Source: Acidimicrobiia bacterium
GTDB taxonomy: Bacteria > Actinomycetota > Acidimicrobiia > UBA2766
Direction: 5' to 3'
Length of the DNA stretch: 32,708 bases
Assembly: GCA_020850945.1 (NCBI GenBank)
Contig: JADZDR010000076.1
Location: forward strand, 1 to 32,708
Shown: piece by piece, positions 2,061 through 25,247 of the stretch
Numbering within the stretch: the first letter of the stretch is position 1
Layout: every line of letters begins with the position of its first letter
Translations under genes and position numbers: made by a program
The notes under the pieces: model-generated
Seen by the model: the letters and a program-made list of their open reading frames with translations, nothing else
The model's database searches: none
What the model was told of the DNA's origin: nothing

Positions 2061-3692
2061 ATGCCAGAGACAGGCACGGTCATCTCGACCACGATGCAGC
2101 CGCACCAGCTCACGATCACCGACATCCTGGGCCACGGCCGGCGTGTCTACTCGGACAGCGAGGTCGTCACGTTCGAAGGCGAGACCTCGCGGCGTGCGAC
2201 CTACGCCGAGGTGGCGGACCGGACGGACCGGCTCGCGGCTGCCCTCGCACGCCTCGGTGTCCGACCGGGCGATCGCGTCGGCACGTTCTGCTGGAACACG
2301 CAGGAGCACCTCGAGGCCTATCTAGCCGTGCCGAGCATGGGCGCGGTCCTCCACACGTTGAACATCCGCCTCTTCCCCGAACAGCTCGCCTACGTCGTCG
2401 GCCATGCCGCCGACAAGGTGATCATCGTCGACGACTCGCTCGTACCGCTTCTTGCCCGCGTGCGGGACGAGCTGACGACCGTCGAGAACTTCGTCGTCGT
2501 AGGCGACGGCGACGCCGCCGCCCTCGGAGACGTCCTCCGCTACGAGACCCTCCTCGGGGCCGAAGATCCCGGACACGCGTATCCGGATCTCGACGAGAAC
2601 GCAGCCGCGGCCATGTGCTACACGAGCGGTACGACCGGCAATCCCAAGGGTGTCGTCTACAGCCACCGCTCCACGTACCTCCACTCCCTCGCCGAGTGCG
2701 CGGCCGGGTCGATCGGTCTGCTCGAATCCGACCGGATCCTCCCCATCGTCCCCATGTTCCACGCAATGGCGTGGGGCCTCCCGTACGCCGGCTGGATGAC
2801 CGGATCGGACTTCGTCATGCCGGGCCGCTTCCTCCAGGCCGAGCCGCTCGCCCGACTCATCGCCGCCGAGCGGCCCACCGTGGCCGGTGCCGTCCCCACC
2901 ATCTGGAACGACCTGCTCCACTACTCCGACGACAACGACGTCGACCTGTCCTCGTTCCGTCTCGTCGTCTGCGGAGGCTCCGCCGTTCCCCGCAGCCTCA
3001 TGGAGGCCTTCGAGAACCGGCACGGCATGCGCATCATCCAGGCGTGGGGAATGACCGAGACGAGCCCGCTCGGCGCCGTCGCCCATCCCCCGAAGAGCGC
3101 CGGCTCCGCAGACGACATGGACTGGCGGGCGCGGACGGGCCGGGTCGTGGCCGGAGTCGACCTGCGCATCGTCGCCGACGACGGCACGGAGCTGCCCTGG
3201 GACGGTGAAGCAGTGGGCGAGATCGAAGTGCGAGGGCCATGGATCACGGGCAGCTACTACCGTGACGACGACCCGGCGAAGTTCCACGAAGGCTGGCTGC
3301 GCACGGGCGACGTCGGCACCGTGGAGCCGAACGGCTTCATCCAGATCACGGACAGGGCGAAGGACGTGATCAAGAGCGGCGGCGAGTGGATCTCGTCCGT
3401 CGAGCTCGAGAACGAGGTCATGGCACACGACGACGTCCTCGAGGCGGCTGTGATCGGCGTCGAGGACGAGAAGTGGGGGGAGCGTCCCCTCGTGTGCGTC
3501 GTCCCGAAGCCGGGAGCGGAGCCGTCCGCCGACGACCTCGCCTCCCATCTGGAGGGCCGTGTCGCCAAGTGGTGGATTCCCGAGCGTTGGACCTTCGTCG
3601 ACGAGGTGCCACGCACGAGCGTCGGCAAGTTCGACAAGAAGGTCCTCCGCGCCCGCCACGAGAAGGGTGAGCTCGAGATCACGACACTCTGA
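2061..3692 (+). CDS. Fatty-acid--CoA ligase (AMP-binding)
   Basis: This 543-residue protein belongs to the ANL superfamily of acyl-CoA synthetases, which activate a carboxylic acid with ATP to an acyl-adenylate and transfer it to CoA. The P-loop YTSGTTGNPKG is at about residues 187-197. The QAWGMTETSP (A5) block, the RTGDVG/D-R-KD-IKSGGEWIS hinge region and the C-terminal PRTSVGKFDKK motif with the catalytic lysine are all present, so it should be active. The overall pattern, including the early DILGHGRRVY stretch, is that of medium/long-chain fatty acid ligases (AlkK/FadD type). The true substrate cannot be read from sequence. A MaoC-type hydratase lies 7 kb away, but no beta-oxidation operon is visible. 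The gene converges on the acetyltransferase gene with a 12-base gap. Confidence 0.9.
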   Translation: MPETGTVISTTMQPHQLTITDILGHGRRVYSDSEVVTFEGETSRRATYAEVADRTDRLAAALARLGVRPGDRVGTFCWNTQEHLEAYLAVPSMGAVLHTLNIRLFPEQLAYVVGHAADKVIIVDDSLVPLLARVRDELTTVENFVVVGDGDAAALGDVLRYETLLGAEDPGHAYPDLDENAAAAMCYTSGTTGNPKGVVYSHRSTYLHSLAECAAGSIGLLESDRILPIVPMFHAMAWGLPYAGWMTGSDFVMPGRFLQAEPLARLIAAERPTVAGAVPTIWNDLLHYSDDNDVDLSSFRLVVCGGSAVPRSLMEAFENRHGMRIIQAWGMTETSPLGAVAHPPKSAGSADDMDWRARTGRVVAGVDLRIVADDGTELPWDGEAVGEIEVRGPWITGSYYRDDDPAKFHEGWLRTGDVGTVEPNGFIQITDRAKDVIKSGGEWISSVELENEVMAHDDVLEAAVIGVEDEKWGERPLVCVVPKPGAEPSADDLASHLEGRVAKWWIPERWTFVDEVPRTSVGKFDKKVLRARHEKGELEITTL

Positions 3693-10833: not shown

Positions 10834-11682
10834 TCAGGTCTTGTAGGTCGCCTTCGCCTGCTTGAGGACGACGTTGCCCTTCTGCGTCTCGGCCTGCACG
10901 ATCGCCTCGCCGTCGCCCGTCTCCCAGATCTTCGTGATGATCGTGTCACCGGGGTAGACCTGGTCCGAGAAGCGTGCCTCGAGGCCGAGGAAGTTGGCGG
11001 GGTCATCCGCACAGAGGGTGTGGAGGATGCCCCGTCCCACGAACCCGTAGGTGCATAGGCCGTGGATGAACGGCGCGTCGAAGCCGGCCATCTTCGCGAA
11101 GTCGGGATCGACGTGGAGGGGGTTCACGTCGCCGGAGAGCCGGGAGATCGCCGCCTGCTCCTCGCGTGTCGTGTCCTCCCACACATGGTCGGGCTCACGT
11201 TCGGGGGGGAGGTTCACGGACTTCGTGTCGGGCCCGCGTTCTCCGTCGAAACCGCCCGCGCCGCGCACGAAGATCCCGAAGCGGCTCGTGAAGATGGGTC
11301 CGTCGCTGTCCGATGTCGTGACTTCGACGTTGACGACAGCGGCCTTGCCCTTGTCCCAGACCTCGACGATCTCGCCGCCCGTCGACACCTTGGCGTTCGG
11401 TGGGATCTCACGGTGGAGGGTGATGCCCTGCTCGCCGTGGAGGATCATCATCGGGTTGATGTCGACCTTCCCCACGATCTGGGCCATGCCGGGGAAGGCG
11501 GGGATGACCGCGTATGTGGGGAGCACCTTCGGCCCCTTGCCTTCGTACACGAACTCGAGCTCGCCCACGGGTTTTGCGCCGACGCCGAGGGCGTAGAGCA
11601 TCACATCCTTCTGGGTCCACTCCGATTCGGTGGCATCGATCTTGATGCCGAGGGCTTGGGAAATGGGGGCACGTTCGCTCAT
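10834..11682 (-). CDS. MaoC-like enoyl-CoA hydratase 2
   Basis: This 282-residue protein has two hotdog halves, as in the hydratase-2 domain of peroxisomal multifunctional enzyme 2 and bacterial relatives. It should hydrate trans-2-enoyl-CoA to (R)-3-hydroxyacyl-CoA. The C-terminal hotdog carries the hydratase-2 signature LSGDVNPLHVDPDFAKMAGF, with the catalytic pair Asp185 and His190. The N-terminal half (about 10-150), with the YALGVGA block, is the non-catalytic hotdog that binds the acyl chain. Length is typical. The ATG at 11682 is probably leaderless: TTGACT and AATGCT with an 18-bp spacer end 8 bases before it. It is divergent from the kinase/P-loop gene and followed by the GCGCGC hairpin cluster. 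Confidence 0.9.
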   Translation of the reverse strand: MSERAPISQALGIKIDATESEWTQKDVMLYALGVGAKPVGELEFVYEGKGPKVLPTYAVIPAFPGMAQIVGKVDINPMMILHGEQGITLHREIPPNAKVSTGGEIVEVWDKGKAAVVNVEVTTSDSDGPIFTSRFGIFVRGAGGFDGERGPDTKSVNLPPEREPDHVWEDTTREEQAAISRLSGDVNPLHVDPDFAKMAGFDAPFIHGLCTYGFVGRGILHTLCADDPANFLGLEARFSDQVYPGDTIITKIWETGDGEAIVQAETQKGNVVLKQAKATYKT

Positions 11683-11690
11683 GGCGGAGA

Positions 11691-11720
11691 AGCATTGCCC
11701 CTTCTCGATCCGCGAGTCAA
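11691..11720 (-). promoter_or_regulatory. MaoC gene promoter (leaderless)
   Basis: On the minus strand a -35 TTGACT (11715-11720) and -10 AATGCT (11691-11696) are separated by 18 bases. The -10 ends 8 bases before the ATG at 11682, so the transcript likely begins at the start codon. It overlaps the divergent promoter of the next gene. Confidence 0.55.
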
Positions 11721-11724
11721 GAGG

Positions 11725-11730
11725 CAGGAT
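11725..11730 (+). promoter_or_regulatory. Leaderless -10 of kinase/P-loop gene
   Basis: CAGGAT ends 6 bases before the ATG at 11737 with no Shine-Dalgarno. The 54-bp divergent gap with the MaoC gene must hold both promoters. Confidence 0.4.
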
Positions 11731-11736
11731 TGGCCG

Positions 11737-13236
11737 ATGACAGACCAGACGAACCCGCAGGCGGCCGCCGGCGTCGCCGAGACGCACGCCGGGATCGTGT
11801 TCTTCGTGGGGGACAGGGCGTACAAGGTCAAGAAGGGAGTGAAGTTCGCCTTCCTCGACTTCTCGACCCGGGACCGGCGCCGCCTCGCCCTCGAGCGCGA
11901 GCTCACACTCAACCGCCGTCTCGCCCCCGACGTGTACCTCGGGATCCTCGACGTCGTCGGTGCGGACGGCACCCCGCTCGACCACGTGCTCGAGATGCGC
12001 CGCATGCCCGACACGGCGCGCCTCACCTCGCTCGTGCGGGCCGGGCGGGACCTCACCGGGGAGATCGACGAGATCGCCGACCGCATGGCGGAGTTCCACG
12101 CCGGCGCGCCGACGGGTGGGGAGATCGACACCGTGGGGCTGCCGGAGACGATCCTCGGGCACTGGCGGGACAACGTGGCGGAGATGCGCCCGCACGTGGA
12201 GGGGGGCATGCAGGCGATTCTCGACCCTGACGAGTTCGAGCGCTGCTGGATCCTTGCCCGCGAGTACGTCTCGGGCCGCCACCCCCTCTTCGCCGCCCGC
12301 GTCGAGGCAGGCTGCATCCGCGACGGGCACGGCGACCTCCTCTGCGACGACATCTTCTGCCTCGACGACGGAGTGCGCATCCTCGACTGCATCGAGTTCG
12401 ACGACCGCCTCCGCTGGGGCGACGTGGTCGCCGACATCGGCTTCCTCGCGATGGACCTCGAGCGCATCGGCGCGGTCGGGCTCGCCGAACGGCTCCTCGA
12501 CCGGTACCGGGACATGACCTGCGACACGGCGCCCCGGAGCCTCGTCCACCACTACATCGCCTACCGGGCACATGTGCGCACGAAGGTCGCGGTCCTGCGC
12601 CACGCCCAGGGCGACGACGCCGCGCTGCAGAAAGCCCGACTCCTCCTCGACATCTGCCTCTCCCACCTCGAAGAGGGGCGGCCCCGGATCGTCCTCGTCG
12701 GTGGCAGCCCGGGCACGGGCAAGACCACGGTGGCGGAGGGACTGGGCCGGTCGCGGGGCTGGGCGGTCCTGCGTTCGGACCTCGTGCGCAAGGAGCTGTG
12801 CGGCGTCGAGCCCACGGACCACACGCAGGCCGGCGGCTTCGGCACCGGCCTGTACAGCACCGAGACGACTACCCGCACCTACGCAGAGCTCGCCCGCCGA
12901 GCCGGCACGCTGGTCGGGTTGGGCGAGTCTGTCGTGCTCGACGCCACGTGGTCGAGTGCGGAGGGGCGGGAGTCGATCCGCAGACTCGGCGCCGAGACGG
13001 GCGCGGAGGTGGTCGAGCTGCGTTGTGTGTGCGATCCGGCCGAGGCGGCAAGGCGAGTCGAGGCCCGACTCCGCACGGGCCGAGATGCCTCGGACGCGAC
13101 GGCGGACGTGGCAGCGCGCATGACGTCGGAGTTCGAGCCGTGGCCCGAGGCACACGTGGTCGACACGACAGGGGACGTCGACACGTCGATCGCCACGGCC
13201 CTGCGCGCGGTCACCCCCCGCGCGGGCCGCGCCTGA
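11737..13236 (+). CDS. Phosphotransferase-like/P-loop kinase fusion
   Basis: This 499-residue two-domain protein has an N-terminal aminoglycoside-phosphotransferase-like kinase fold (about 20-300) and a C-terminal P-loop kinase/ATPase (about 315-495). In the first, GDRAYKVKKGVKFAFLDF suits the nucleotide lysine strand, DGHGDLLCDDIF (His198-Gly199-Asp200) is the catalytic loop, and IEFDDRLRWGDVVADIGF is the DFG-like/metal region. In the second, GGSPGTGKTT (322-331) is Walker A, with VVLDATW a probable Walker B region. The architecture and length match mycobacterial Rv2004c, a conserved DosR-regulon protein of unknown substrate; the homology is from memory, not a search. The catalytic residues look intact. 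No resistance function should be assumed. Confidence 0.85.
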   Translation: MTDQTNPQAAAGVAETHAGIVFFVGDRAYKVKKGVKFAFLDFSTRDRRRLALERELTLNRRLAPDVYLGILDVVGADGTPLDHVLEMRRMPDTARLTSLVRAGRDLTGEIDEIADRMAEFHAGAPTGGEIDTVGLPETILGHWRDNVAEMRPHVEGGMQAILDPDEFERCWILAREYVSGRHPLFAARVEAGCIRDGHGDLLCDDIFCLDDGVRILDCIEFDDRLRWGDVVADIGFLAMDLERIGAVGLAERLLDRYRDMTCDTAPRSLVHHYIAYRAHVRTKVAVLRHAQGDDAALQKARLLLDICLSHLEEGRPRIVLVGGSPGTGKTTVAEGLGRSRGWAVLRSDLVRKELCGVEPTDHTQAGGFGTGLYSTETTTRTYAELARRAGTLVGLGESVVLDATWSSAEGRESIRRLGAETGAEVVELRCVCDPAEAARRVEARLRTGRDASDATADVAARMTSEFEPWPEAHVVDTTGDVDTSIATALRAVTPRAGRA

Positions 13237-16665: not shown

Positions 16666-16812
16666 GTGAACGGGATACCTCCCTGCCGTGAGTGTCGCAC
16701 GGCGATGGAGCGGGTCGGGGGCCGCCTCGGCATGCAGCTCTGGAGCGACCACTGGCGCTGTCCGGAATGCGGCTGGGAGCTGCGCCTCAGCTACGGCCGC
16801 GGCTCCGTCTGA
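16666..16812 (+). CDS. Small zinc-ribbon protein (48 aa)
   Basis: This short gene encodes 48 residues with two CxxC knuckles, CREC near residues 7-10 and CPEC near 33-36, separated by about 22 residues. This is the pattern of a zinc ribbon. The AAGGAGGT ribosome site favours GTG 16666; ATG starts at 16603 and 16609 would add about 20 acidic/polar residues. It has no signal peptide or membrane segment. Its job is unknown: such proteins often bind nucleic acid or a partner enzyme. It precedes the giant secreted caspase-like gene by 128 bases and is transcribed in the same direction. That gene has its own promoter-like sequence, so a link is unproven. Confidence 0.65.
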   Translation: MNGIPPCRECRTAMERVGGRLGMQLWSDHWRCPECGWELRLSYGRGSV

Positions 16813-16871
16813 CGCGGGATGTCCGACAACCGCCTGCCACGGACAGAACAGGAGCAAACGCCGAGAGCGGT

Positions 16872-16933
16872 TTGGGTCAGCTCGTGCGAAGAGCTATCGT
16901 TCCTTTTGTTCACTTAGGTCCACTGGGGAGGAG
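16872..16933 (+). promoter_or_regulatory. Promoter and RBS of giant secreted protein gene
   Basis: TTGGGT (16872-16877) and TATCGT (16895-16900) are separated by 17 bases, a good housekeeping promoter. The stretch 16895-16920 is unusually AT-rich for this window. The ribosome site GGAGGAG (16927-16933) lies 7 bases before GTG 16941, giving a leader of about 34 bases. Confidence 0.6.
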
Positions 16934-16940
16934 ATGCGAC

Positions 16941-19900
16941 GTGGGGAGCCTGCGAGTGAGACTCATCGCCACGCTCCTCTGCAGCGTGGTCGCCGCTGGA
17001 GTCCTGCCCATGGCCGAGGCGGACGCGGCGCCACCGAACCCGGCACCCGTGTTCCAGTCGCCGCTCTCCGTGCGCGAGGAAACAGAGCTGCACCTGGGCT
17101 GGTACAGCCTCGCGTCCCTCGACGCCAACGCCGACGGAAACCTCGACGTCGCCGCCATCGGCGCGCGAGATGACAGGGTGCGCCTGAGCGTCCTTCTCAA
17201 CCAGGGTGACGGAACCTTCGGCGCGCCGTCGTTCGCCACGGAGATCCCCGTGCACCCGGGCCATTGGCACCCGGGATACGTCTACTGGGATGCACAGCTC
17301 ATCGCGGCGGACGTCGACGACGACGGGAACGGAGACCTCGTCGCCGTCTCGACTTCGTGGGACGGTGCCCTCGTCTTCGAAGGAGACGGCACGGGCGGGT
17401 TCGCCGAGCCGGTGCAGACGCCGGGGGTTACGACGGGCACCGTCCGTGCGGGGCAGATCGACGGTACGCCGACACCGGAGCTGGTCCTCCTCGACGGCTC
17501 CGCGGTGAGGGTGCTGCGCCGGGGCGGGGACGGCACCTATGCCGAACAGACGCTGGCGTTCTCGGGGGCGGGAGCGTACGACATGTCGATCGCGGACGTG
17601 ACCGGCGATGCCCGCAACGAGATCGTGGCCTTCGGCAACCGCACGGTGCAGGTCTTCACGTTCGACGATCTCGGCAACGCCACCCGCACCGATCGAACGA
17701 TTCCCGAGACGTACGGCGGGGCCGTCTTCGAGGTCGACGGCGACGGCGACAACGACATGGTGATCTGGGGGCCCTCCCAGTACACGGTTCTCACCAACGA
17801 CGGGACCGGCGCGTTCACGGACCTGCCCAGTGTCAGCTACGAGTGGGACTACAACACGAGGCACCACGCCGAGCCGGCCGACTTCGACGGCGACGGCTCT
17901 CTCGATCTCGCCATCGAGCAGACCCAGCGTGTCAACGTCCTCCTCAACCGCGGTGGCGGCACCTTCACGCTCGACTTCTACGCCTCGCAGACACCCAACG
18001 ACGCCACGCAGCTGCTTGTCGGAACCACAGGGGCCGTCATCTGGGGTGACTTCGACGGAGTCGGCCCTCTCGACCTCGTCACCGGATCCAGCGCCCGTAG
18101 CTGGGCACGCGAGTACGGGTCGATCGCCCTCCTCCCCGGAGATCCGTCCCACCCCGGGAGGTTTCTCGCTCCGCGAGGCTGGGGTGTCGGCGCCGACGCT
18201 TCGTTCACTTACAAATCTGACGCCGCCGTGTTCGTCGACTGGAACCGCGACACCCGGCCGGATCTGGTCACAACCGCGTATCTGCCCACGGGTCACTCGC
18301 TGTTGATGTTCCCGGGGATGGGCGACGGCACCTTCGGACCCCGCCACGTCGTCACGACCCTGAGACGTTGTGCGGGCAAGCTCGGCATCGCCGACTTCGA
18401 CGGTGACACCCACCCTGACGTGCTCTGCACCCATGGTCAGTCCGTCGTGTACTTCAACGACGGAGTCGGCGGTGTGAGTGGGAGCGTCGACATCGCGCAC
18501 GTCTCGCCCAGCTTCCCGTCGAGTGACGGCGTGGGTCAGTCGTTCCGCATCACCGACGTGAACGGAGACGGCCGGCCGGACATCGTCGTCTACATGACGA
18601 ACAACTGTTGCGCCTTCGGAGAGCCGTGGATCGCCGGGCTCGGCGTCGCCCTGTACGACCCGGCGAACCCGCGGACGTTCACGGTGACGAGCGGGCTCGA
18701 CCTCCGCTACGTGCCCGGCCCCCAGGCCTTCGAGGCCGGCGACTTCGACAGCGACGGCAAGGTCGACCTCGTCACCCACTCGAGCCGGACGACATCGAAC
18801 GCCGTGGGCGAACGCTTCATCTTCTTCCGGGGCCACGGCGACGGCTCCTTCGACACCACGGTCACCCAGCCCGGCTACGTCGAGAACTGGCCGGCGATGC
18901 GTGCCGCGGATCTCGACGGGGACGGCAGGCTCGACATCGTCGGCGGCGACTGGGCCCACACGACAGTCATGCACGGGAACGGGGACGGCACCTTCACGCC
19001 CGGCGCCGCGTACGCCACCGCAGCTTCGATCCGTCTTGCCGACGTCAACGCGGATGGGCTCGCCGACCTCCTCGATCCGAGTCCGTTCGAGGGGGGGCTC
19101 GTCATCCGGACAGGCCAGGGTGACGGCACGTTCGGCGACCCGCAGCGCCTGTACCCGGGCTTCGGGTCCATGTACGACGTCCAGGCGGCCGACCTGAACG
19201 GTGATGACGCGGCGGATCTCCTCGCGGTCGGTACCTCCGCCCTCGCAGGGCTCGGGATCATCCTCCAGGAGGATCCCGGACCCGGGACTGGCGATCCGGC
19301 GAACCTCGTCGTCGAGGCGGTGAGCGCACCCGACGAGGCGGAGGCCGGGACGACCCCGGAGATCACGTACCGAGTCCGCAACACGGGCGGCGCGACGTCG
19401 GGTACCACGTGGCTCGACCGCGTCTACCTGTCGACCGATGCGTCATGGAGCAACGACGACGTCCTCGTGGCGTCGGCGGTGCGCAGCGGCGGGCTGGGAG
19501 CGGACGCGACGTACGAGCCGACGCTCCAGGGTCCCCTCCTGCCTGGTGAGGTGGGTGACTACACGGTGATCGTGCGTGCCGACGTCGAGGGCACGCTCGA
19601 CGAGACGGGCGAGGCCGACAACACGTTGGCCGCGATCGGTCAGACGTCCGTGACGGTGCCTGACCTCGGAGTCGGCGACGACGTCGACGTCACGCTGAAG
19701 GCGGGCGAGTCCCGATTCCGCCGTGTCACTCCTCCGGCCGGGGCGGACGCCCGCGTCGACGCGGCTCTCGCCGGAGAGGCCGTCGCCACGCTGCGTGCTG
19801 CGCGGGGCCGCCTCCCCTCTGTGACCGACGCCGATGTCGTGGCGTCGTCACCCGACGGCGCCGATCAGAGCGTGAGTCTGTCCGGCGAGCCGGCCGGGGA

Positions 19901-22900
19901 CTGGTTCGTCATGCTCACGGGGCGGGCGGCCGCCGCGGACGGCACCGTCGCCACCCTCTCGGCCCGGTCGGTCGGGTTCGAGATCCTCTCGACCACTCCG
20001 GACGAGGGGTCGCGGGCAGGCGACGCGACCATCACGGTCACCGGCGGGGGATTCGATGCGGGCGCGGACGTGGTTCTCGTGGGTGGCCCGGAGGACTCGC
20101 GGCGTGCGGCACGCGCGGTGCAGCGGCGCGACCGCACCCGTCTCGACGCCACGATCTCCCTGCAAGACCTCCCCCTCGGCACCTACGACGTCGTGGTCCG
20201 CAACCCCGACGGCACCGAACGCGCGGCGTCGGGCGCATTCACCGTGACGAGCGATCCGGCCGGACAGATCGACGTCGACGTGAGCGTGCCACCCAAGCTG
20301 CGTGCGTCCCAGGAATCGCCGCTTCGCATCACGGTGACGAACACGGGGGGCACCGACATCGTCGTGCCCCGCATCGTCGTCACGCCCGCCAACGCGACCG
20401 TGAAGCTCGGTGACACCCTGGAGTTCTCGGACGTCTACGTCCTCACGCCGGCCGACCTCACACCCGAGAACGGCGCGCTGCCCGTAGGGGTCATTCCGCC
20501 CCACGCGACCCGCACGGTCACGGGCAAGATCCGGGCGGGGGGCGTGGGCCGGGCGACTGTCGACGTGCGGGTCGACGCCGAAGAGGCGCAGCCGGCCGCC
20601 GACGCCGAGGTGATCGAGGCTCTCGGCATCGAGGGGCCCGACGCCGTGAGTCCCGGTGACTCGGCAGCCGTGCGCTTCGCGCTCGTCAACTCGGGTGCGT
20701 CAGCCCAGTCGGGACCGTTCGACGTCCGTGTCGGGCTGTCGCGACCCCTGAAGCACATCGAGACCGACGAGGGCGAGACGGGCGGGTTCTACGAAGGTGG
20801 CGAGTTCGTGGAGGCCGCGACCTTGAGCGTCGGTGAGGCCGTGACGCTCCAACCCGGCGGTGAGGCGACCTTCGAGGCGGCCGTGCCGGTCCCACCCCTG
20901 ACCGCCGGAGAGTGGAACTGGGCGCTCGATCCCGACGCCGACACGCTCGACCACACCGTGAACGCAGCCGAGGGCATGGCCTATCCCGACACGGAGATGC
21001 CCGTCCCCGGTGCGCCCGTCACGGTCGACGTCGAATCGATAGGTCTCGGCACGACGACGGGCGCCGTCGGCGAAGAGGAGCCCGGCGTCTTCCGGATCGA
21101 TCCCACCCTCGGGCGCGTGCGTGTCGAGCTCACGGGCCCGGCGAACGCCCGGCTTCTGGCGGGAACGTTCGACGCTCCGACCGAGAGCTTCTTCGAGCAG
21201 GAGGCGCAGGGCACGCCCCTCGTGCTCGCGCTCGAATCCGCGCGCGTACCGGACCGCTACGTCACGGTGCTGGGCGAGGGTGCGTTCAGTCTCGAGGTAG
21301 AGCCCGTGACACCGAGCATCGAGGGTGTCTCGCCGGGTGTCGTCGGGAACTCCGGTCCCGTCACCGTCCAGGTGTCCGGCGGGGCGACCCTCGACGCGAA
21401 CGGCGCGCAGCTCGTGGGGCCGGGGGGCACGCGGTCGGCCTCGGTGGTCGCCCCCGACCCCGATGCGCCCAGTCTCGCCGCCACCTTCGACACCACAGGC
21501 CTCACACCCGGGCCGTACACCCTGCGCCTCCTCCAGGGCAGCAGCCTCCTCGCCGCGAAAGAGGCGGCACTCGTCGTGAACGCAGGCGGTGCGCCGGAAT
21601 TGGCCGTCGACGTCCTCCTGCCGGACACGTTCCGTCCCGGCGAGCCGAATGCGCTCACGCTCCACTATGCGAACACGGGGACGGTCGACGCGCTCCTGCC
21701 GTTGATCACACTCCGCGCCTCTGCAGGGGGTGCGATCCGTGCATCCCGCGACGCGCAGGAGAGCGACGGCGCCGGTGCTGTCGCCGGCCTGATCCCGCCG
21801 GCCGTCGTCCCGGGTATCGCCGCCCTGCCCCCCGGCAGCGACTCGACCGTTCAGGTCTGGTACACGCCGCCCGCCGACTTCGACGGGACCATCACGATCG
21901 AGCACTGGATCGACGACTTCGCCGACCCCGCCTTCGCCGCAGAGCCGCTCGGCTGGGACGAGCTGAGCGCGGCCGTGCGGCCCGCGAACGTCGACGACGC
22001 CGCCTGGAACGACCACATCGCAGAGGAGATGGCGCGATACGGTGAGACGTGGGGGGAGCTCTACGCGTTCCTGACGTCCCAGGTCGCCGCGCAGGGGCGC
22101 GACGGGATCGAGGGGGCCGTGTTCTTCAACGGCAGGTGGCAGTGGACCGTCGCCCTCGCCGAGAAGTCGGCCTTCCCCCGACCGCGAGGCCCGGCACGCC
22201 CGTCCCTCACCCGGCCGAGTGGGGCACCACCCGCCCAGATCGCCCCGCAGGAGGAGCGGCCGGGTGACGGGATCTCCAAGACGTGGGTCGTCAACATCGT
22301 CGTGTCGGAGTTCCAGCGTGGCTTCTACTCCGCCATGCGCGACGACGGCAAGCGTGTCGAGACCCTGTTCCGCGACTTCTACAACGTCCCCGCCGCGAAC
22401 ATGAAGAACGTGCGGGACGTGGACCAGGACGACGGACTGCAGCCCGGCGAGATCCTCGACGCGATCCGCGACACCATGAACCAGGCCGACGGCGACGACA
22501 AGGTCATCATCTGGTACACGGGCCACGGCTCCGGCGAGGGCTGGTACGGCAACGACTATGACGTGGGCCGCGACTGGTACTCTCTCCGGAGCCTGAAGGC
22601 GGCGGACATCGCGGGTGCTCTCGCCGTGAACCAGACGACACCCACCCTCGTCGTCGACGACTCATGCTTCAGTTGGGGCCAGATGGGCAGGATCGCCAAC
22701 GCGAATGTCGCCACGCTCGCCACCGCACCGAACATGGTCTACGAGAAGGACACGATCGCGGACGCGTTCACGAAGGAAGCCCTCCTCGACCCGAAGGCCG
22801 ACTGGGCCGATCTCGCCCAGAGGGCGTCCGACCGCAAGCGGGGTCTCCGGAATGCGGGCACGGCGACTACGGGTGAATGCGAGACCTGGTACCAACAGCG

Positions 22901-25247
22901 GGATGCCGGAAAGTGGGACGTTCGCCGGCGCAGTCGCGGCTACCTCGCCATGCTCTCCGACGACGAGTACGCGGCACTGGAACGGGAGTACCAGGCCATC
23001 TACGACGCGTGGCGGACAGATCCGTCACGTCCAAACGGCACGGGAGCGCATCCGGAGCTCCAACAGCAGATCGAGTTCCGCGCGGCAAGCAACGCATGGC
23101 AGGAGGCGAATCCCTTCGAAGCCCGCCTCACGTCGGACAACCTGCGAACCCTGCACCTCGACCAGAAGGACCGATATCCGCACTTCGCCCCCTGGATGAA
23201 CCTCAAGGGCATGGGCGGCTTCAAGCCCGGCGCCGGGAACCTCGACATCAAGCCCGAGGCGATCGGCCGCGAGGCATTGCAGAGGATCCAGGCACCCCCG
23301 ACCGGGAGCGAAGGCAAGAGCACGGCCAGGGGAGAGTCTCCGATCTGTCCGACGACACGTTCGACCGACGTGCACGTCGACATCGAGGTGGTCGGCTCCG
23401 TCGACCCCAACGAGATCCTCGGTCCGGGCGGGCAGGGGCCCGAGAGGTGGGTGCCGCGGGGCTCGACGCTCGACTACACCGTGCGCTTCGAGAACCTCGG
23501 TCCGGGATCCGATGTCATTCCGCCCGGGCAGTCGCCGGCGACGGCCCCGGCGACGTCGGTCGTGGTCACGCTACCCCTCGACAGCGACCTCGACCTCGAC
23601 GCGGTGTCACTCGGCGACATCCGGTTCGGAGCGGTCGATGTGGCCGTTCCGGCGGGTCGCGACGCGTTCGCCGTCAGGCTCGGCGACGATGCGGGCGAGT
23701 ACGTCCCACCGCTGGGCGACGTGCTCGACATCCAAGGCGTGCTCGACCGTGATGCACGCGTGGTCACGTGGACGTTCGTCACGATCGACCCCGCGTCGGG
23801 GACGCAGGACGACCGTCCCGACGCCGGCTTCCTGCCTCCGGAGGACGGGACAGGGGCGGGACAGGGGTACGTGCAGCTCGCCGTTCGCCCCGAGGCCGAT
23901 GCCCCCGCCGGGACACTGGTCGAGGCGCAGGCGTCCATCGTGTTCGACACGAACGCGGCGATCGCCACGAACACGTGGATGAACACGCTCGACGCTGATG
24001 CCCCGGCCGTCACTATGACCTCCCCCGACCTCTTCAGCCCGGCCGAGATCCCCCTTGCGTGGACGGCGACGGACGACGGTTCGGGGGTGGCCGCCTACGA
24101 CGTGTACGTGGGTCGTGACGGGGCGCCGCTGACACTGTGGCAGGCCGGCCTGGTGGACACGAGCACGGTCTATCCCGGGGCGGTGGGGCACTCCTACGCG
24201 TTCGCGGTGTCCGCGCGGGACTCTGTGGGGCATGCGGGGCCGGTCCCGGCCGAGGCGGATGCGGTCACCTTCGTCCCGGTGCCCAACGTCGCGCCCGTGT
24301 GCGAGGCGACCGGTGCCGAGACCGCGGAGGACACGGCGGTGACCGTGACGGTCACCTGCACCGACGAGTCGCCTGCGACCCTGTCGTACACGGTCGTGGA
24401 CGGGTCCGGGCCGGGGCACGGCACGATCGAGGCGGTCGGCGGCGGCGCGTTCCTCTACGCCCCCTCACCGGACTTCAACGGCACCGATTCGTTCGAAGTG
24501 GTCGCCACGGACGAAGGCGGCGTCCCTTCCGCGCCGGCGGGTGTCGCCCTGACCGTGACACCCGTGAACGACGTGCCGTCGTGCGACACGCTCTCCGTGG
24601 CGGTCCCCGCGGGCCAGGAGGTGTCGGTGCCGCCTTCATGCCGGGACCGGGACGGCGACGCCCTCACCTTCTCGGTCGCCGCTCAGGGAACAGCGGGTCT
24701 GGCGTCCGTGGCCGAAGGGGACCTCCTGTACGCGGCGGGCCCGACGCCCGGTGGCGACACCTTCACCTATGTCGCAGCCGACGGTTCGTCGACGAGTGCC
24801 CCGGCCGACGTGAACGTCACGATCGAACCCGCATCAGGCTCGGGTGGCCTCACACCGGCCGTCGCCTTCGCGAGGTTGCGTCCGCGTCAACGCGGCGGGC
24901 CGACCGTGGTCGTAGCCAGGGGTTCGTTCCGGCTCGAACCTGGCCGCAGCGTCGCCTGCGGAGACGACGTCACCGTTTCCCTCGACGGCACCCGCATGCA
25001 CGAGACGCTGTCCGGCAGGAAGTTCGTGCGGTTCTTCGACTGGTGCGTGTACACGTCGCCCCGGGGCTTCCTCGACTGGTTCGCTTACGACATGAGAGAC
25101 GGAATCTGGAGCATGTTCGGGACAGGCCGGTCGGTCACCCTCGCCGGACTCGGGACCCCGGCCGAGTTCGGGCTGACGATCGGCGACGACTCGGGTGCCG
25201 TCTCGGTTCCGTTGCGCCGCGCGGGCAGGTGGTGGGTCCACCCATGA
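16941..25247 (+). CDS. Giant secreted FG-GAP / caspase-like protein
   Basis: This 2,768-residue protein starts at GTG 16941 with a signal peptide (basic SLRVR, hydrophobic core to about residue 23, cleavage near AEADAA). Approximate domain order: fourteen FG-GAP/VCBS units (61-760) with calcium-type DxDxDG loops; a CARDB-like module (787-905); a region resembling pre-peptidase domains (905-1010); IPT/TIG-like modules (about 1012-1105 and 1454-1550) with further immunoglobulin-like modules between and after; a Pro-rich linker; a caspase-like domain (1780-1990); a helical charged segment (about 1990-2130); a SVDPNE-type module (about 2150-2350); a fibronectin-like module (2360-2450); two cadherin-like modules (2450-2632); and an unrecognised C-terminal domain with two Cys. 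The dyad is His1862 in YTGHGSGEG and Cys1909 in VVDDSCFSW, the clan CD pattern. No LPXTG or C-terminal membrane segment is present, so it is probably released or bound non-covalently. Substrate unknown. Confidence 0.85.
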   Translation: MGSLRVRLIATLLCSVVAAGVLPMAEADAAPPNPAPVFQSPLSVREETELHLGWYSLASLDANADGNLDVAAIGARDDRVRLSVLLNQGDGTFGAPSFATEIPVHPGHWHPGYVYWDAQLIAADVDDDGNGDLVAVSTSWDGALVFEGDGTGGFAEPVQTPGVTTGTVRAGQIDGTPTPELVLLDGSAVRVLRRGGDGTYAEQTLAFSGAGAYDMSIADVTGDARNEIVAFGNRTVQVFTFDDLGNATRTDRTIPETYGGAVFEVDGDGDNDMVIWGPSQYTVLTNDGTGAFTDLPSVSYEWDYNTRHHAEPADFDGDGSLDLAIEQTQRVNVLLNRGGGTFTLDFYASQTPNDATQLLVGTTGAVIWGDFDGVGPLDLVTGSSARSWAREYGSIALLPGDPSHPGRFLAPRGWGVGADASFTYKSDAAVFVDWNRDTRPDLVTTAYLPTGHSLLMFPGMGDGTFGPRHVVTTLRRCAGKLGIADFDGDTHPDVLCTHGQSVVYFNDGVGGVSGSVDIAHVSPSFPSSDGVGQSFRITDVNGDGRPDIVVYMTNNCCAFGEPWIAGLGVALYDPANPRTFTVTSGLDLRYVPGPQAFEAGDFDSDGKVDLVTHSSRTTSNAVGERFIFFRGHGDGSFDTTVTQPGYVENWPAMRAADLDGDGRLDIVGGDWAHTTVMHGNGDGTFTPGAAYATAASIRLADVNADGLADLLDPSPFEGGLVIRTGQGDGTFGDPQRLYPGFGSMYDVQAADLNGDDAADLLAVGTSALAGLGIILQEDPGPGTGDPANLVVEAVSAPDEAEAGTTPEITYRVRNTGGATSGTTWLDRVYLSTDASWSNDDVLVASAVRSGGLGADATYEPTLQGPLLPGEVGDYTVIVRADVEGTLDETGEADNTLAAIGQTSVTVPDLGVGDDVDVTLKAGESRFRRVTPPAGADARVDAALAGEAVATLRAARGRLPSVTDADVVASSPDGADQSVSLSGEPAGDWFVMLTGRAAAADGTVATLSARSVGFEILSTTPDEGSRAGDATITVTGGGFDAGADVVLVGGPEDSRRAARAVQRRDRTRLDATISLQDLPLGTYDVVVRNPDGTERAASGAFTVTSDPAGQIDVDVSVPPKLRASQESPLRITVTNTGGTDIVVPRIVVTPANATVKLGDTLEFSDVYVLTPADLTPENGALPVGVIPPHATRTVTGKIRAGGVGRATVDVRVDAEEAQPAADAEVIEALGIEGPDAVSPGDSAAVRFALVNSGASAQSGPFDVRVGLSRPLKHIETDEGETGGFYEGGEFVEAATLSVGEAVTLQPGGEATFEAAVPVPPLTAGEWNWALDPDADTLDHTVNAAEGMAYPDTEMPVPGAPVTVDVESIGLGTTTGAVGEEEPGVFRIDPTLGRVRVELTGPANARLLAGTFDAPTESFFEQEAQGTPLVLALESARVPDRYVTVLGEGAFSLEVEPVTPSIEGVSPGVVGNSGPVTVQVSGGATLDANGAQLVGPGGTRSASVVAPDPDAPSLAATFDTTGLTPGPYTLRLLQGSSLLAAKEAALVVNAGGAPELAVDVLLPDTFRPGEPNALTLHYANTGTVDALLPLITLRASAGGAIRASRDAQESDGAGAVAGLIPPAVVPGIAALPPGSDSTVQVWYTPPADFDGTITIEHWIDDFADPAFAAEPLGWDELSAAVRPANVDDAAWNDHIAEEMARYGETWGELYAFLTSQVAAQGRDGIEGAVFFNGRWQWTVALAEKSAFPRPRGPARPSLTRPSGAPPAQIAPQEERPGDGISKTWVVNIVVSEFQRGFYSAMRDDGKRVETLFRDFYNVPAANMKNVRDVDQDDGLQPGEILDAIRDTMNQADGDDKVIIWYTGHGSGEGWYGNDYDVGRDWYSLRSLKAADIAGALAVNQTTPTLVVDDSCFSWGQMGRIANANVATLATAPNMVYEKDTIADAFTKEALLDPKADWADLAQRASDRKRGLRNAGTATTGECETWYQQRDAGKWDVRRRSRGYLAMLSDDEYAALEREYQAIYDAWRTDPSRPNGTGAHPELQQQIEFRAASNAWQEANPFEARLTSDNLRTLHLDQKDRYPHFAPWMNLKGMGGFKPGAGNLDIKPEAIGREALQRIQAPPTGSEGKSTARGESPICPTTRSTDVHVDIEVVGSVDPNEILGPGGQGPERWVPRGSTLDYTVRFENLGPGSDVIPPGQSPATAPATSVVVTLPLDSDLDLDAVSLGDIRFGAVDVAVPAGRDAFAVRLGDDAGEYVPPLGDVLDIQGVLDRDARVVTWTFVTIDPASGTQDDRPDAGFLPPEDGTGAGQGYVQLAVRPEADAPAGTLVEAQASIVFDTNAAIATNTWMNTLDADAPAVTMTSPDLFSPAEIPLAWTATDDGSGVAAYDVYVGRDGAPLTLWQAGLVDTSTVYPGAVGHSYAFAVSARDSVGHAGPVPAEADAVTFVPVPNVAPVCEATGAETAEDTAVTVTVTCTDESPATLSYTVVDGSGPGHGTIEAVGGGAFLYAPSPDFNGTDSFEVVATDEGGVPSAPAGVALTVTPVNDVPSCDTLSVAVPAGQEVSVPPSCRDRDGDALTFSVAAQGTAGLASVAEGDLLYAAGPTPGGDTFTYVAADGSSTSAPADVNVTIEPASGSGGLTPAVAFARLRPRQRGGPTVVVARGSFRLEPGRSVACGDDVTVSLDGTRMHETLSGRKFVRFFDWCVYTSPRGFLDWFAYDMRDGIWSMFGTGRSVTLAGLGTPAEFGLTIGDDSGAVSVPLRRAGRWWVHP
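17121..19230 (+). repeat. Fourteen FG-GAP/VCBS repeat units
   Basis: In-frame repeats of irregular length (about 40-65 residues) each carry a loop such as DANADGNLD (residue 61), DVDDDGNGD, DFDGDGSLD, DFDGVGPLD (370), DWNRDTRPD (433), DVNGDGRPD, DLDGDGRLD and DLNGDDAAD (751), followed by a hydrophobic strand. Units 3, 4 and 5 (QIDGTPTPE, DVTGDARNE, EVDGDGDND) are degenerate. Fourteen units would make two seven-bladed beta-propellers. Confidence 0.75.

Follow-up and report, generated by a model that had tools for sequence, protein, structure and literature searches.

The central part of a giant secreted-type protein encoded in the genome of an environmental Acidimicrobiia bacterium appears to be a distant relative of the metacaspases. 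Sequence profiles, a homologue that keeps the same motifs and a weak structure model together support the assignment of residues 1780-1990 to clan CD (caspase fold), as a metacaspase-type domain. The gene lies in a stretch of 32,708 nucleotides, referred to here as the window. An initial annotation had proposed an active, secreted cysteine peptidase with metacaspase-like chemistry; of this, a metacaspase-like clan CD domain that has both catalytic residues and lies within a multidomain protein of secreted type held up, while its activity stays a prediction.

Gene and domain architecture

The open reading frame spans 16692-25247 on the plus strand and yields 2,768 residues when the GTG at 16941 is taken as the start. 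Its frame is open over 8.3 kb with a coding-type base composition (third-position GC 0.87), and both its G+C and its third-position G+C agree with the rest of the window. The 83 residues upstream of the GTG are most likely a spurious extension, because DNA homology to a genome of the same genus (G002) stops at 16812, before the GTG. This end point coincides with the end of a zinc-ribbon-like ORF (16666-16812, plus strand; two CxxC pairs, about 48 residues or slightly longer), which is kept in G002 and lies in another frame beneath the extension. Elsewhere in the window, a 724-residue ORF (11062-13236, plus strand) carries a C-terminal AAA_33/zeta-toxin-like kinase domain.

From N to C terminus, the protein consists of a putative signal peptide, FG-GAP repeats with Ca-binding-like DxDxDG loops, a CARDB domain, an anchor-Z-like repeat, sequence without a family assignment, the linker rich in Pro, the protease-like domain, a VDPNEILGP/DUF7619 module, Ig/cadherin-like repeats and a C-terminal end that is again unassigned (Table 1). 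The flanking modules had been described as adhesion-type, and the FG-GAP, CARDB and Ig/cadherin-like matches fit this description, although the function is only guessed. An identity as a polymorphic toxin was rejected because Pfam detected no toxin domain at the C terminus, near which only the Ig/cadherin-like repeats and an end without any assignment were found.

Table 1. Positions of the giant gene and its features in the window.
Feature	Position	Strand	Basis
Giant secreted-type protein, 2,768 residues	16941..25247	+	GTG start after GGGGAGGAG
Sec-type signal peptide, RVRLIATLLCSVVAAGVLPMAEADAA	16941..17030	+	Judged by eye from sequence
FG-GAP repeats, 11 stretches, beta-propeller type	17118..19490 (approximate limits)	+	Pfam PF13517, E 9.5e-50
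CARDB domain	19302..19631	+	Pfam PF07705, E 1.6e-11
'Choice-of-anchor Z' repeating domain match	19989..20246	+	NCBIfam NF058597, 27.7 bits, slightly below cut-off 30
Pro-rich linker upstream of protease domain	22158..22277	+	4 of 5 Arg precede Pro
Caspase/metacaspase-like domain	22263..22895	+	Profiles, homologue, model
Asp1802, candidate equivalent of helix-1 Asp (TbMCA2 Asp95)	22344..22346	+	Alignment with metacaspase-4; PMC4357240, PMC6426788
Putative catalytic His1862 and Gly1863	22524..22529	+	Sequence, homologue alignment
Asp1907-Ser1908-Cys1909: putative S1-pocket Asp (TbMCA2 Asp211) and catalytic Cys	22659..22667	+	Alignments
VDPNEILGP module including DUF7619 match	23400..24020	+	Pfam PF24595; common to related giant proteins
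Ig/cadherin-like repeats (Big_9, Cadherin_5, Cadherin_4)	24285..24716 (approximate limits)	+	Pfam

Assignment of the protease-like domain

His1862 (22524-22526) and Cys1909 (22665-22667) were found where the initial annotation had placed them, 47 residues apart, the former in a WYTGHG motif starting at residue 1858. Both His1862-Gly and Asp-Ser-Cys1909 close a predicted strand, in keeping with clan CD, where a strand ending in His-Gly is followed by one ending in Cys. When the protein sequence was shuffled 3,000 times, a strict pattern (hydrophobic strand, HG, 30-80 residues, hydrophobic strand, [DN]DSC) never arose, and a loose HG...DxCx[SGA] pattern did so in 2.5% of the shuffles. That the motif is not due to chance is strongly argued by a homologue in the Acidimicrobiia MAG FR_2 (G126, JAOSJL010000001.1), whose domain is only 33% identical and keeps both His-Gly and Asp-Ser-Cys.

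In a Pfam family search with the whole protein as query, no match to Peptidase_C14 (PF00656, curated cut-off 21.4 bits) was obtained. When trimmed to 22278-22910, the domain scored 18.5 bits (E 0.0017), and because this falls short of the cut-off we refer to it as metacaspase-like and not as a C14 member; the FR_2 domain exceeded the cut-off with 29.4 bits. The best NCBIfam match of the trimmed domain was the EACC1-associated caspase (E 5.8e-5), an identity rejected on the score against NF047832 (22.7 bits versus a cut-off of 140). A gingipain identity was likewise discarded (PF01364, C25: 12.0-17.2 bits, below 23), and PADLOC returned nothing beyond a weak match to 'caspase' (E 0.013).

Profile comparisons pointed to the metacaspases. 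With a profile built from the window and FR_2 domains, Arabidopsis metacaspase-4 was the sole match among solved structures (4.1e-6); His and Cys were matched in this alignment, with SDSCHSG of metacaspase-4 opposite DDSCFSW of the window domain. A four-sequence profile reached metacaspases down to 4.4e-15, a partly circular result since two of the four rows are ordinary C14 proteins, and its only non-metacaspase match at E < 0.5 was 3bij, an uncharacterized protein. Asp1802, His1862, Gly1863, Asp1907, Cys1909 and Ser1911, together with three other columns, are invariant in the four-sequence alignment.

Structure prediction gave a single-sequence AlphaFold model with a pLDDT of 44 and, from a two-row alignment, a poor model (mean pLDDT 50.8, pTM 0.56) in which the elements follow the caspase order and, at low confidence, a strand and helices come after Cys1909. 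In a Foldseek search with this low-confidence model, ranks 1-15 were all metacaspases (E 4e-4 to 4.5e-3) and legumain came next, followed at lower ranks by clostridial toxin cysteine protease domains and MALT1 among unrelated folds. TM-scores to metacaspases were 0.33-0.43 for this model of pLDDT 50.8, which is too weak for a His-Cys distance to be read from it.

Distribution, locus and related scaffolds

FR_2 has every part of the window protein's architecture, with RTX-like repeats added at the end. Its copy (L003) is spread over three frames by two frame changes, which may be assembly errors or decay, and the caspase domain lies within 1,409 uninterrupted codons. FR_2 and the window genome were the only two of 395 Acidimicrobiia genomes with the domain. 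No match was found in three genomes of the same family as the window genome, including one from its genus, or in 57 other genomes of FR_2's order. A search of genome contigs with the window protein revealed no relative, nor did searches of viral contigs and plasmids, and a search of the phylum returned one ordinary stand-alone caspase. A caspase-family ORF that scores above the C14 cut-off was noted in genome G078 (L014 685-2283, plus strand); it has GHV instead of GHG near the expected His, AACYGG at the Cys and a possible lipoprotein signal, and could represent an inactive or atypical form.

The locus was compared in three relatives. The flanking DNA in G002 is 82-85% identical to that of the window, and a different, ferritin-like ORF, not a giant gene, occupies the slot between the ilvC-adjacent hydrolase and serA. 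By eye, this ORF (L020 about 2100-3680, minus strand; about 388 residues) is ferritin-like, of the ribonucleotide-reductase-like kind. In G001 and G003, ilvC and serA adjoin. The gene is therefore species-specific among these relatives, and it would either have been gained in the window species or lost in all three.

Two other giant secreted-type ORFs, of 3,090 codons in G327 (L012 3837-13106, minus strand) and 3,186 codons in G184 (L013 5392-14949, plus strand), align with window residues 5-1562 and 61-1258, respectively, and again from 2154, at 28-38% identity. In place of the protease, their centre contains carboxypeptidase-regulatory-like repeats along with other sequence, and Pfam detected no peptidase in this part. 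The VDPNEI-type module is kept in both and is preceded by a helical stretch. It is tentatively conceivable that the Acidimicrobiia possess a family of giant secreted proteins in which the propeller/CARDB front and the VDPNEI module stay constant and the central cassette is swapped, one version of which would have an active extracellular metacaspase as its working part. Such a family would amount to a modular surface system able to take a caspase-family protease as cargo.

Predicted function and relation to known proteases

In metacaspases, acidic residues of the S1 pocket set the specificity for Arg or Lys, and Asp95 (helix 1) and Asp211 (two residues before Cys) of TbMCA2 belong to this pocket (PMC4357240, PMC6426788). 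By alignment, Asp1802 corresponds to Asp95 and Asp1907 to Asp211, and FR_2 keeps both; given this acidic pair, cleavage after Arg or Lys is the expected specificity of the domain.

We propose, with about as much confidence as doubt, that the protein is a secreted stalk with an internal metacaspase-like Arg/Lys protease as cargo acting on extracellular proteins; secretion, activity, specificity and substrates are all predictions from sequence. The FG-GAP propeller and the Ig-type modules would form the secreted stalk that carries the clan CD cysteine protease domain, in which His1862 and Cys1909 would constitute the catalytic dyad and Asp1802 and Asp1907 an acidic S1 pocket that directs cuts after Arg or Lys. 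Outside the cell, targets would be surface or environmental proteins. Because two related proteins have other domains at its position in the scaffold, it would most likely be enzymatic cargo.

The domain could instead process the protein from within, cutting the polypeptide to which it belongs and freeing an N-terminal or C-terminal part, a reading that we regard as possible but doubtful. The Pro-rich linker, suggested in the initial annotation as a candidate site of such self-cleavage and release, is a poorly supported one: four of the five Arg in the linker, Arg1747, Arg1753, Arg1758 and Arg1773, precede Pro, and Pro after Arg usually blocks cleavage. Arg/Lys-rich stretches that follow the domain, for example VRRRSRG at 1994-2000, would offer other sites, but the RRRSR stretch is not conserved in FR_2. 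The existence of two related scaffolds without the protease argues against its being the maturation enzyme of the scaffold, since those two can evidently mature without it. Internal caspase-like domains have been described in large bacterial surface proteins and polymorphic toxins (Zhang 2012, PMC3482391) and are mostly taken as releasing peptidases. The window protein resembles these in having an internal caspase-like domain in a long secreted-type protein and differs in that no toxin domain was detected downstream of the protease.

It is unlikely that the caspase fold is catalytically dead or structural and serves to bind peptides or only as a spacer in the stalk. Precedents for inactive forms exist in pseudo-orthocaspases and inactive caspase repeats (PMC6426788, PMC3482391), and the sequence has diverged, but at 33% identity the His, Gly and Cys and the two S1 Asp are all retained. 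That the domain is not of clan CD and its motifs are coincidental, as the poor single-sequence model and the family score below cut-off might suggest, is highly improbable in light of the conservation in FR_2, the C14 score of the homologue, the profile matches to metacaspases and the Foldseek ranking.

Compared with metacaspases and orthocaspases (C14, subfamily C14B), the window domain shares the predicted order beta1-alpha1-beta2-alpha2-beta3(HG)-alpha3-beta4(DSC), HG and DSC-x-S, and both S1 Asp, but it is embedded in a giant secreted-type scaffold and no clear p10 or Ca-binding 280-loop is established. Ca binding of metacaspases involves the 280-loop of p10, and p10-less orthocaspases may manage without it. 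Gingipains (C25) are likewise secreted clan CD Arg/Lys proteases, to which the domain shows a weak match; His221 and Cys244 of RgpB are 23 residues apart (PMC4357240), compared with 47 here. EACC1-associated caspases, despite being the best NCBIfam match, belong to a two-gene membrane-associated conflict system (PMC7159879).

On the basis of their partner domains, an extracellular location was assigned to 30 of 671 prokaryotic metacaspases (Asplund-Samuelsson 2012, PMC3501461), in a paper whose main text contains no propeller, CARDB or adhesion terms; the part consulted of the main text of PMC3482391 does not mention FG-GAP or CARDB. The same architecture was not found in the literature searched, a partial coverage of main texts. 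Extracellular metacaspases have thus been predicted before and internal caspase-like domains in large surface proteins described, and what seems new is this carrier architecture. Since the protease sits in a slot that holds other domains in two relatives, the protein is best read as an unusual carrier of a known kind of protease.

The general view of the caspase fold would stay unchanged. With their differing central sequence, the related scaffolds lend themselves to a natural comparison of protease-bearing and protease-free forms. Discussion of prokaryotic caspase relatives usually centres on programmed cell death; if our proposal is true, a metacaspase built into a secreted stalk would clearly exemplify a role outside the cell.
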